Source of the DNA: Actinomycetota bacterium
Lineage (GTDB): Bacteria > Actinomycetota > Acidimicrobiia > Acidimicrobiales > AC-35
Direction: 5' to 3'
Length of the DNA: 41,540 nt
Assembly (NCBI GenBank): GCA_005884125.1
Contig: VAXP01000128.1
Location: 1 to 41,540, forward strand
Shown: positions 4,813-8,097 of the stretch, piece by piece
Numbering within the stretch: position 1 is the first letter of the stretch
Layout: every line of letters begins with the position of its first letter
The notes under the pieces: model-generated
Told to the model about the DNA's origin: nothing
Database searches by the model: none
The model's input: the letters and a program-made list of their open reading frames with translations, nothing else
Made by a program: the position numbers and the translations under genes

Positions 4813-6213
4813 TCAGCACGGATGGCGGAGAGGACCCAACTGGCCCTCGGTCGGCTCCGCTCAGCAGAACCACGGCTCGGTGAGCCGTGGCCTCCCTTCC
4901 AGCGAGCCGGCCAGCAACCCCTGGGGCACGGACACGGTCCGGCCCCCGGGCGCTTCGGCCACGGCTTGGGTCACCCGGGCGAAGGTGGCAACCGTCCCCT
5001 CGCCCCGGGCGGCGGCGTCCTCCACCAGAGCGGCCAGGCGGGCCTGGAGACGGTCCACCTCGGGATCGGCCGAGGACCACCGCCACGTCAGGTGCTCGGC
5101 GTCGTAGCCCTCCAGGCGGGACACGAGCTCGGCGTCGGAGAGGAGCAGGGAGCCATCGGGGACGAGGAGGCGGATGGAGTAGTGGACCGGGTCCACGTTG
5201 CCCACCAGGTCGTGGTCGACCACGAAGTCGAGGATTTCGGCGACGTCGGCCACCGTGGTCCACGGCGTGAAGGGCAGCAGCGACGGCCTGGGCTCGATGC
5301 CGTGCTCCCTGAGCAGGGTCACCGCGCGCGCCGCGTCGGCCGCGGTATGGCCCTTGTCGATGCGAGCCAGGATGGCGTCGTTCACGCATTCGACGGCGGT
5401 GACGACGAACAGGCATCCGGCCTCGGCCATGCGCCCCCAGATCCCGTGGTGACGAAGGATGAGCTCCACCTTCGTCGTGCAGTCGAAGGTCAGCTCCGGG
5501 AAGCGCCCGTGGACCTCGTCGACGACGCGGAGCGAGTGGTGCACGGCGTTGAGGAAGTCCGGGTCGCCGAAGGTGATGTGCCGGGCCCCGGCGGCCACGA
5601 GGCGGGCCACGTCCTCGACCACCACGTCGCGACCGACGATGCGCACCCGGCCGTCGTAGACGGCGGGGACGGGGCAGTGCCGGCAGCGCGAAGCACACCC
5701 GTGGCTGGCCTCGACGTAGCCCACCACCCGCTCCTGTCCCCCCATGGCCAGGTGGGCGTAGCCGCCCAGCGGGGGAAGCAGCTCGCGCCGGGGAACCGAG
5801 AACGCCCCCCGGTCCCGGTTCAGGACCGAGGGCCCGGGCTGGCGACCACGGCCCAGGTCCTCCACCCACGCCAGCAGGCCGGGTTCGTACTCCCCCGCCA
5901 CGATGTGGTCGGCGAGCGGCCCCAGCGTGAGCTCACGGCTCACGCCGGCGTAGAGGCCGTACAGGCAGAGGGGGAGCCCGGGCCTGCTCTCCCGGATGCG
6001 CCTGGCGGCCTGGGCCGCCAGGCGCATGGCCGTGTGCATGGGCACGGAGAGGGCGGCGGCCCCGGCCCAGGCCACCGCCTCCTGATCCCAGGCCTGGGCG
6101 GCCAGGTCGACGCAGCGGACCTCGTGCCCGGCCGCGAGCAGCGCCGCCGCGGGGGAGGCCAGGTGGAGGGGCTGGTGGCCGAGCTCGTAGGTCGACAGCA
6201 GGAGCACCCTCAT
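4813..6213 (-). CDS. Radical SAM protein with C-U-A-E-P tail; predicted selenoprotein (UGA at 4861-4863)
   Basis: The start ATG at 6213 overlaps the stop of the upstream ATP-grasp gene (ATGA). An N-terminal Rossmann-like domain (1-120) resembles B12-binding folds but lacks the DxHxxG cobalamin motif. The radical SAM core begins EASHGCASRCRHCP, with CxxxCxxC cysteines at 173, 177 and 180 for the [4Fe-4S] cluster. Conventional translation stops at TGA 4861-4863 after LTEPWFC (450 residues). The frame continues as A-E-P-TEGQLGPLRHPC to a second TGA at 4813-4815, giving 466 residues with U451 in the motif CUAEP. I recall an NCBI family named CUAEP/CCAEP-tail radical SAM (seleno)protein with this tail. 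A SECIS-like hairpin follows the UGA. The reaction is unknown. No selA, selB, selC or selD is in the window. Confidence 0.85.
4825..4860 (-). promoter_or_regulatory. Candidate bacterial SECIS element
   Basis: Directly 3' of the in-frame UGA, the minus strand can fold into an inner 7-bp hairpin GAGGGCC-AGUUG-GGUCCUC (4830-4848) closed by an outer GCGGA/UCCGC stem (4856-4860 with 4825-4829), leaving a 5' bulge. The apical loop begins 20 bases after the UGA and has G at its second position. Both agree with published rules for bacterial SECIS hairpins as I recall them (loop about 16-37 bases from UGA, G in the first two loop bases). Folding was done by eye. Confidence 0.65.
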
Positions 6214-7442
6214 GCCGCAGCCCGGATGTCGAGGCGCAGGCAGGCGTGGGCCTCCCGCAGGGCCTCCTCCACCGCTTCCGGTGTGGCCGCCCGGGCGAAC
6301 ACGAACCCCAGGTAGCGATCGCCTTCGGGCAGAGGCAGCACCGGCCTGCCCCGCGGGATGGTGATCTCCAGGCCGGCGATGCCGGGGACGGCGCGCGCCG
6401 CGGCCTGACCCCTCACGGCCACGAGCGTTCCCGCCTCGGGGATGGGAAGCATCATCACGCCGGATGCGGCCGCCTCCCGCACCAGACCGGCCAGGGGCAG
6501 GCCCAGGGCGTGGCGCAGGATGACCTCCTCCAGGCTCATGCCCAGCCCGAAGCGCAGGGCGCGCGAGCACAGCCCGCCGATGGAGCGGGCCGCCACCTCG
6601 ATCATGACCGGACCGCGCTCGCCCGCCCTCAGCTCGGCGTGGACCGGCCCTCCGGACAGGCCCAGGGCGGACGCGGCCTGGGCGACGCAGCGGTCCACGG
6701 CCTCGAGCACCGGCGCCCCCAGCCGCGAGGGCGTCACGTAGATCGTCTCCTCGAAGTAGGGCCCGGTCAGGGGGTCGGGCTTGTCGAAGACGGCCAGCAC
6801 GTGCAGCTCTCCCCCGCGCAGCAGGGCCTCCACCGCCAACTCGGGCCCGGGCACGTAGCGTTCCACCAACAGGGGCCCGTCACCCTGGCCCGCGGCGCGA
6901 GCGATGGCCCGCACCCGCTGCGCCACCCCGGGCGCCGACCCGGGATCGTCGACCCGGATGACGCCCTGGCTGGCCGACAGGGACACGGGCTTGATCACGC
7001 AGGGAGGTGCGAGCTCTCTCACCAACCCGGCCGCGGCGGACGCGTCCTGGTCCGGCTCGAGCAGCCGCCACTCGGGCTGAGGTACCTGGGCCCGGCCCAG
7101 CGTCTGCCGCATGACCCCCTTGTGGCGGGTGGCCGCCACCGCCGCCACCGGGTTATGGCTGACGCCGAGCTCCTGAGCGACCCGGGCCGCCAGCTCCACG
7201 CCCTGGTCGTCCACGGCCACCACGGCGTCGACGGGGCGGCGCCGGGCCAGGGCCGTGACCGCCTCCATGGCCTCCCGGGGACGGCGGGGGTCCAGGACCA
7301 GGGCCCGGTCGTCCATCAGGCCGGACAGCGCCTGGGGCTGCTCCGACGCCACCACCAGCTCGACGTTCAGGCGCCGGGCCGCGCTGACGAAGTCGAGGGC
7401 CCGGTAGGTCGAGGAGGGCAACAGAAGGAGGAGGCGGGCCAC
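6210..7442 (-). CDS. ATP-grasp carboxylate-amine ligase family protein
   Basis: A 410-residue ATP-grasp enzyme. Such enzymes activate a carboxylate as acyl phosphate and join it to an amine or thiol. Visible blocks are an N-terminal Rossmann-like domain (LLLLLPSSTYRALDFV), HKGVMRQTLGRAQVPQPEW (start of the ATP-grasp core), CVIKPVSLSASQGVIRV (ATP-binding lysine), LVERYVPGPELAVEALL, and PVMIEVAARSIGG (metal ligands Glu/Arg). It most resembles L-amino-acid ligases. The GTG at 7442 is chosen because longer starts would run into the divergent nfuA gene. Its stop overlaps the radical SAM start, so the two are almost certainly translated together and probably act on one product. Substrate unknown. 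Confidence 0.85.
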   Translation of the reverse strand: MARLLLLLPSSTYRALDFVSAARRLNVELVVASEQPQALSGLMDDRALVLDPRRPREAMEAVTALARRRPVDAVVAVDDQGVELAARVAQELGVSHNPVAAVAATRHKGVMRQTLGRAQVPQPEWRLLEPDQDASAAAGLVRELAPPCVIKPVSLSASQGVIRVDDPGSAPGVAQRVRAIARAAGQGDGPLLVERYVPGPELAVEALLRGGELHVLAVFDKPDPLTGPYFEETIYVTPSRLGAPVLEAVDRCVAQAASALGLSGGPVHAELRAGERGPVMIEVAARSIGGLCSRALRFGLGMSLEEVILRHALGLPLAGLVREAAASGVMMLPIPEAGTLVAVRGQAAARAVPGIAGLEITIPRGRPVLPLPEGDRYLGFVFARAATPEAVEEALREAHACLRLDIRAAA

Positions 7443-7461: not shown

Positions 7462-8097
7462 GTGGCACCAGTCGAAGCCGAGCCCATCGTCAACGTCTCA
7501 GAGGTCGCCCGGGCCAAGGTCCTGGAGATCCGGGGCACAGAACAGGAGCCCGAGAAGCTCGGGCTCTGGATCGAGGTCAGCGGCGTCTCCGGCGCCAGCT
7601 ACACCTACGACATGTGGTTCCAGCCCGTGGACGAGGCCGGGCCCGACGAGGTGGTGCAGCGCCTGGGCGACCAGGGCGACCTGGCCCTCGTGCTGGCCCA
7701 GGCCAGCGTGGACAAGCTGCACGGCGCCACCCTCGACCTCTCCCCCGACGGGGGCATGGTCATGGTCAACCCCAACACGCCCTCGCCTCCCATGACGGCC
7801 AGGCCCGCGGGCGACCTCAGCGGAGACGTGGCCCAGCGCGTGGTGCAGATCCTGGAGCAGCAGATCAACCCGGCCATCGCCTCCCACGGGGGATTCGCCG
7901 AGCTGGTGGCCGTGGAGGAGGACACCGCCTACCTGCGCCTGAGCGGCGGCTGCCAGGGTTGCGGTCTGGCCTCCGTCACCCTGACGCAAGGCATAGAGGT
8001 CGCCATCCGCGACTCGGTCCCCGAGATCGTCAACGTGGTCGACGTCACCGATCACGCCAGCGGGACCAACCCCTACTTCGAGGCCGCCAAGAAGTAG
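7462..8097 (+). CDS. nfuA: NfuA-type Fe-S cluster carrier
   Basis: A 211-residue protein with the two-part layout of NfuA: an N-terminal A-type (IscA/HesB-like) domain, about residues 8-100, without the three cluster-binding cysteines, and a C-terminal NifU domain, about 120-200, with the CxxC motif in SGGCQGCGLASVTL. NfuA proteins carry [4Fe-4S] clusters, bound at the CxxC between two subunits, to client enzymes in the cytosol. It is transcribed away from the radical SAM/ATP-grasp operon; supplying clusters to the radical SAM enzyme is possible but is inference. The GTG start is chosen for length and for the upstream -10-like box. Confidence 0.85.
   Translation: MAPVEAEPIVNVSEVARAKVLEIRGTEQEPEKLGLWIEVSGVSGASYTYDMWFQPVDEAGPDEVVQRLGDQGDLALVLAQASVDKLHGATLDLSPDGGMVMVNPNTPSPPMTARPAGDLSGDVAQRVVQILEQQINPAIASHGGFAELVAVEEDTAYLRLSGGCQGCGLASVTLTQGIEVAIRDSVPEIVNVVDVTDHASGTNPYFEAAKK

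Follow-up and report, generated by a model that had tools for sequence, protein, structure and literature searches.

A radical SAM gene of the NF040546 family with an in-frame UGA and a conserved SECIS hairpin in a draft Actinomycetota genome

The gene described here is most similar to the NCBIfam family NF040546, named "CUAEP/CCAEP-tail radical SAM (seleno)protein". Second among the named families comes ArsL (NF040542), an arsinothricin biosynthesis protein predicted to transfer the 3-amino-3-carboxypropyl group from SAM to arsenite (PMC8552651). No reported function for the NF040546 family was found in the literature searched, and neither 'CUAEP' nor 'NF040546' occurred in the open-access papers searched; two selenoprotein-family papers by Haft and colleagues may cover the family. 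Both terms had zero occurrences in the main text of a 2026 review on selenoproteins in prokaryotes (PMC13188914), a search of another review (PMC9312934) for 'radical SAM' showed only a TIGR04167 entry and no CUAEP entry, and a term search of a method paper (PMC12013277) gave neither 'radical SAM' nor 'NF040546'. As far as the literature searched goes, what is presented below on the consensus hairpin, its test in held-out loci and the neighbouring genes is new.

Reading frame and family membership

The window, i.e., the whole stretch of 41,540 nucleotides that was analysed, belongs to a draft genome of 3.74 Mb in 183 contigs (93.57% complete), in which the radical SAM gene is located on contig C139. 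The features of the gene are as follows:

4813..6213, minus strand: radical SAM gene of NCBIfam NF040546, very probably encoding a selenoprotein; ATG at 6213, final TGA at 4815-4813 (translation and family match)
5674..5697, minus strand: radical SAM CX3CX2C motif with C173, C177 and C180 (sequence, Pfam and alignment)
4861..4863, minus strand: in-frame UGA, almost certainly Sec (residue 451), directly after Cys450 and aligned with TGC/TGT in relatives
4816..4860, minus strand: read-through tail A-E-P-T-E-G-Q-L-G-P-L-R-H-P-C (translation and 51-member alignment)

On the minus strand, the Cys codon TGC (4866-4864) is followed by TGA (4863-4861) and by GCG GAG CCG (A-E-P), after which 12 codons (T-E-G-Q-L-G-P-L-R-H-P-C) lead to the final TGA. 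The product comprises 450 residues up to the UGA and 466 residues with read-through (U451). Both this arrangement and these lengths had been proposed previously from the DNA letters alone (the sequence-only reading) and agreed with the sequence and its translation. Searched for as a 14-base degenerate string, C-U-A-E-P was found once in the window and in 1/100 shuffles (mean 0.01).

The read-through product showed a score of 556.0 bits to NF040546 (cut-off 500) compared to 535.4 bits without the tail, i.e., a gain of 20.6 bits, and it contained the tail feature C-[U/C]-A-E-P of this family as C450-U451-A-E-P. NF040546 is the named radical SAM selenoprotein family that the sequence-only reading had referred to. 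The warning given there that gene callers would truncate the gene holds for the tail, which is missed, but not for the family name, since the 450-residue product scores above the cut-off. Besides, the product matched PF04055 (Radical_SAM; 50.1 bits, over 29.5), and C173, C177 and C180 were invariant in 51/51 aligned members. The match to PF02310 (B12-binding) was 26.6 bits, under the Pfam gathering score of 32.1, and the designation of the product as a proven cobalamin (B12) enzyme was rejected on this basis.

With NF040546 the product shares a full-length match over the curated cut-off, the tail motif and the Sec/Cys exchange described below. Nothing was found to exclude membership; this copy folds an additional outer stem around the conserved hairpin, which is not kept in relatives. 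The gene is thus a new member of an already known, database-named family. The ArsL model was shown to be homologous across residues 3-400, but the score of 261.6 bits is below the cut-off of 450, and the tail is WFCUAEP instead of the RCCLKC that was taken from the model name rSAM_RCCLKC. ArsL has arsQ and arsM as neighbours, whereas an ATP-grasp gene and an NfuA-like gene are found here. Identity with ArsL was rejected based on the score and the tail.

Sec/Cys exchange and the hairpin behind the UGA

A contig scan gave 254 confirmed relatives, and the best 80 of these, located in 79 genomes, were used together with the window (81 loci). A C-[U/C]-[A/S]-E-P tail was present in 81/81 loci, with exactly one W-F-C-[U/C]-[A/S]-E-P in each; that homologues all end at the UGA, which the sequence-only reading had named as a refutation, is therefore not so. 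The codon at the position of residue 451 was TGA in 33 and TGC/TGT in 48 of these 81 loci, a ratio not to be taken as a natural frequency because only the best 80 of 254 relatives were included and the six patterns used for the search comprised one Cys form, EPWFCCAE. Among 51 aligned members of the 81, E446, W448, F449, C450, C/U451, E453 and P454 were found to be invariant and Q458 nearly so; C267 was also nearly invariant, besides the invariant Cys positions 173, 177, 180, 450 and 451.

If the UGA were a real stop, the conserved AEP behind it would be due to chance or to leaky read-through. This is highly improbable. The truncated product does pass the NF040546 cut-off by itself and a further stop follows soon after the tail in some relatives, but the invariance of E453 and P454 and the near invariance of Q458 extend across UGA and Cys members alike, and the hairpin of the UGA members covaries (see below).

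In a quick maximum-likelihood tree, built from an alignment with the tail left out, the Sec/Cys label required 11 changes (0/500 shuffles as low), of which well-supported branches force at least two. Judged from these sequences, Sec/Cys exchange has probably been repeated during the history of the family. When the family model was applied to draws of genomes, 25 matches were obtained in 24 of 396 genomes of the phylum (window included). A TGA was present inside 17 of these matches, in 16 of them at the tail codon, the remaining one being L123 of genome G080. Two of the eight matches without TGA (L121 and L122) were truncated ahead of the tail. In a draw of 59 relatives (window included), 5 of 18 matches had a TGA inside; G080 was again among these five, and G505 was left out of the inspection. 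L123, from the same order as the genome of the window, is a divergent member (283.3 bits) ending in WFCCAAP and not WFCCAEP.

Two RNA structures were considered behind the UGA:

4830..4848, minus strand: conserved SECIS hairpin of 7 bp (GAGGGCC/GGUCCUC) with loop AGUUG at 4837-4841 (conservation and covariation)
4825..4860, minus strand: outer stem, +1..+6 paired with +31..+36, dominating the minimum-energy fold; not the SECIS (folding and pair counts)

The conserved hairpin spans +13 to +31 relative to the UGA, with +13..+19 paired with +25..+31 around a 5-nt loop, which among members reads AGUUC, AGUUG, AGUUU, AGGUC and similar. At least six of the seven pairs were kept in 32/33 UGA loci versus 1/48 Cys loci. 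In the UGA loci, 97.0% of the cells were paired compared to 87.8% in shuffles (0/500 as high), and 20 cells were changed on both sides compared to 2.8 in shuffles (0/500 as high); such compensatory changes were found at four of the seven pairs (6/500 shuffles as high). When the partner was shifted by 1-3 columns, only 28-64% pairing was left, and RNAalifold recovered the same helix. An Rfam scan of the window gave no families at the gathering score.

The minimum-energy fold of 4822-4863 (-19.5 kcal/mol, z -1.98, 9/200 shuffles as good) was built on the outer stem from the bases adjoining the UGA, with the conserved hairpin by itself reaching -12.2 kcal/mol. As the competing fold is the stronger one, the SECIS of the window might be partly masked. 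Conservation of the outer stem was similar in both forms: UGA loci kept a mean of 3.5 of its six pairs compared to 3.2 for Cys loci. As a candidate SECIS starting at the UGA it was rejected, with 58.6% of cells paired compared to a shuffled mean of 57.4% and covariation not above that of shuffles. The sequence-only reading was thus right that a SECIS hairpin exists but had it begin right after the UGA. A lack of hairpin conservation among relatives, another of the refutations it had named, does not apply, as a hairpin is kept as counted above, whereas the best fold of the single sequence is not. Folding a single sequence is a trap in this case, and comparison changes the choice of hairpin.

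Tails held out from these counts behaved similarly. Among 12 distinct held-out UGA tails, two of which (L101 and L103) are separated by a single base across the 45 shown, 10 had at least six of seven pairs, L104 had five, and L113 had two in register. From its sequence and fold, L113 contains a stem without interruptions (GATGGCC/GGTCATC) that closes a GGTCC loop and lies 5 nt out of register, and its tail peptide is altered to TEQMAGPV. With the hairpin intact though displaced and the peptide changed, the RNA element seems movable independently of the peptide. Eight of nine distinct held-out Cys tails had two or three pairs and the ninth, L126, had six. Tails already used (L001, L105, L108, L111, L114, L116, L124, L125 and L130) were dropped, as were an other-strand chance match in L130, the truncated genes L121 and L122, and the divergent L123. 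Two loci with a Cys codon, L060 and L126, had six of seven hairpin pairs; by their sequences, they may represent a recent change from Sec to Cys with a relic SECIS.

The E. coli fdhF-type SECIS is similar in its short stem and its G-U-bearing loop located about 11-12 nt past the UGA, and some family members here have the loop AGGUC. In contrast to the E. coli element, the stem found here consists of seven uninterrupted pairs and has no bulged U.

A chance UGA was rejected on the basis of the hairpin covariation together with the rarity of the C-U-A-E-P string in shuffles. At sequence level, comparison establishes the reading frame, the exchange of Sec and Cys, the conservation of the RNA hairpin, the presence of the Sec machinery (see next section) and the family. 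UGA 4861-4863 is almost certainly decoded as Sec: SelB and Sec-tRNA would read it as such owing to the 7-bp hairpin, which has a 5-nt loop of the AGUU type and starts 12 nt further downstream. The product would end in W-F-C-U-A-E-P-T-E-G-Q, and other relatives would make Cys-Cys at this position. The overall explanation, a true selenoprotein decoded by SelB and SECIS, is held with high confidence. With the SECIS supported by covariation, the gene provides a clean case of UGA recoding, and the consensus can be used for finding more.

Selenocysteine machinery

The sequence-only reading had named selA, selB, selC and selD in the same genome as a further check, and all of them were found over their cut-offs: selA (394.9 bits), selD (333.8 bits), tRNA-Sec (64.2 bits) and, narrowly, selB (257.5 bits; cut-off 242.25). 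ARAGORN also detected a tRNA-SeC with anticodon tca. selA adjoins selB on contig C68 (L003), where selB runs off the contig end, and a piece matching the last selB model positions (533-577) is present at the start of contig C52 (L010); the two pieces are seemingly due to a contig break that cut the gene. A formate dehydrogenase alpha gene (L133; contig C62:24489-25241, minus strand) contains an in-frame UGA in NQARI-U-HSSTV. Its 401 translated residues showed 687.3 bits to NF041513, below the whole-protein cut-off of 1400 since the piece covers 401 of 1067 model positions. By its sequence this is a probable second selenoprotein, so that at least two genes of this genome probably depend on Sec decoding.

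Among the relatives, selA was found over the cut-off in the genomes of 28/32 UGA loci versus 4/31 non-Chloroflexota Cys loci, and of 17/17 Chloroflexota Cys loci, the latter thus keeping Cys despite owning selA. Counted by locus and uncorrected for ancestry, the association gave a Fisher p of 1.4e-9 without Chloroflexota and 7.1e-5 with them. No selA match over the cut-off was found for four of the 32 UGA loci (L024, L040, L055 with a partial match, and L094), possibly due to incomplete genomes.

Gene context, predicted structure and possible function of the tail

Two genes were found upstream of the radical SAM gene:

6210..7442, minus strand: ATP-grasp gene, amino-acid-ligase-like; start by codon-usage gene call, stop TGA at 6212-6210
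7462..8097, plus strand: NfuA-like gene with NifU domain, divergent to the ATP-grasp gene (profile match)

The stop of the ATP-grasp gene (6212-6210) and the ATG of the radical SAM gene (6213-6211) share bases in the form of ATGA. The ATP-grasp protein resembles dapdiamide synthase and BacD amino-acid ligases, but is below all cut-offs, and the NfuA-like gene showed 88.2 bits to the NfuA model, below its cut-off of 269.35. Neighbours in other loci were counted from codon-usage gene calls, a homologue being counted anywhere in the locus. These calls are incomplete (the radical SAM gene itself was called in 75/81 loci, and L071 and L083 had no gene calls around the tail), so the following counts are lower bounds: an ATP-grasp homologue in at least 49/68 loci having 1300 or more bases upstream, an NfuA-like homologue in at least 44/65 loci having 2300 or more bases upstream, and both in at least 40/65. 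In 46/55 same-strand ATP-grasp/radical SAM pairs, the spacing was within the range from a 35-base overlap to a 54-base gap. Both genes were more common beside Cys forms (ATP-grasp 34/42, NfuA-like 33/42) than beside UGA forms (12/23 and 11/23, respectively).

lipB- and lipA-like genes, one representative of each passing the NCBIfam cut-offs, were shown to follow the CCAEP gene in 16/17 Chloroflexota loci (e.g., L042, L044 and L045), and in most of these were followed by pyruvate dehydrogenase E1-like genes. In nearly all of the 16 loci, the ATP-grasp gene precedes and the NfuA-like gene is divergent. The ATP-grasp, NfuA-like and lipB-lipA context makes the function testable.

An AlphaFold2 model based on a 51-row alignment showed a mean pLDDT of 93.6 and a pTM of 0.92, with averages of 85-87 for residues 441-460, 73 for 431-440 and 71 for 461-466. 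The best PDB matches by Foldseek were AprD4, TsrM, OxsB and MgmA (6fd2, 6wtf, 5ul3 and 9ccb; TMq 0.57-0.66), which are alike in fold at 13-20% identity; to our knowledge, none of them has a Cys-Sec tail. MiaB and human LIAS were also among the structural matches. The N-terminal domain appears to be shaped like a cobalamin domain, and from the ordered, near-invariant tail we infer that the vicinal Cys-Sec pair is placed at the active site.

Three roles of this pair were considered and found to be close in likelihood; we favour a clamp for a soft substrate, followed by an Fe-S ligand and then a redox tail. Tentatively, the pair would clamp a thiophilic substrate, such as a trivalent metalloid or a sulfur/selenium species, a SAM-derived radical group would be placed on it by analogy with the prediction for the relative ArsL and arsenite, and the coupled ATP-grasp ligase would then join the amino-acid-like product to another molecule. 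ArsL being the next family, the order of the tail in the model and the ATGA-coupled ATP-grasp gene were counted in favour of this clamp chemistry. Counted against it were the missed ArsL cut-off, the 19/68 loci with room in which no ATP-grasp gene was found together with its lower frequency beside UGA forms, and ArsA-type ATPase (two members) as the sole arsenic-named family in the top 25 by frequency of the 129 Pfam families matched by 121 neighbouring genes.

NfuA recharges the cluster of LipA, and the pair might correspondingly ligate an auxiliary or sacrificial Fe-S cluster recharged by the NfuA-like carrier, in a lipoate- or methylthio-like sulfur inserter. The frequent NfuA-like neighbour, the lipB-lipA genes, MiaB and human LIAS among the structural matches, and C267 as a potential further ligand are consistent with sulfur insertion. 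However, the tail offers just two ligands, NfuA beside lipA may simply reflect a helper encoded next to the lipoate genes that it serves, and only Chloroflexota loci showed the lipB-lipA link; we consider this role rather unlikely. The same degree of doubt applies to a redox tail, in which a Cys-Sec selenenylsulfide would pass electrons to the substrate or protect the cluster, as modelled on the Cys-Sec tail of animal thioredoxin reductase. The adjacent C-U near the C-terminus, swapped with C-C, fits such a role, as does AprD4, a radical SAM diol dehydratase needing electrons, as top fold match, but conserved residues (E-P and Q458) follow, and the tail is rather well ordered in the model, which would not be expected of a mobile redox arm.

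Based on the preferred clamp chemistry, we speculate that an undescribed pathway of Actinomycetota and Chloroflexota may combine the radical SAM selenoprotein with the ATP-grasp and NfuA-like proteins, the clamp-made organo-metalloid or organo-chalcogen product then being ligated. If true, a SAM-derived fragment would be joined to a soft element held by the Cys-Sec (or Cys-Cys) clamp, the product being a new amino acid or cofactor of the organo-metalloid or organo-chalcogen type, and the Chloroflexota version would be tied to lipoate synthesis.

No clear recurrent partner was seen among the 25 most frequent of the 129 Pfam families in a scan of 121 neighbour genes, hand-picked from 145 listed; DUF169 had three members and the other families shown two to four. 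A protein of about 160-280 residues (cluster 33) was encoded near the NfuA-like or radical SAM gene in 25/81 loci (e.g., L086 and L024); its representative had no NCBIfam match and is DUF169-type by look. A SaoD/DsrE-family gene (NF040913, to which one member scored 195.3 bits against a cut-off of 152) was located just downstream and convergent in 4/81 loci (L022, L028, L036 and L046), beside UGA and Cys forms alike. SAO denotes a Sec-assisted organometallic system in the review PMC13188914, and since the representative showed 121.2 bits against the SaoD cut-off of 169, the connection is a lead only. In L090, both the ATP-grasp and the NfuA-like gene were found downstream on the other strand.
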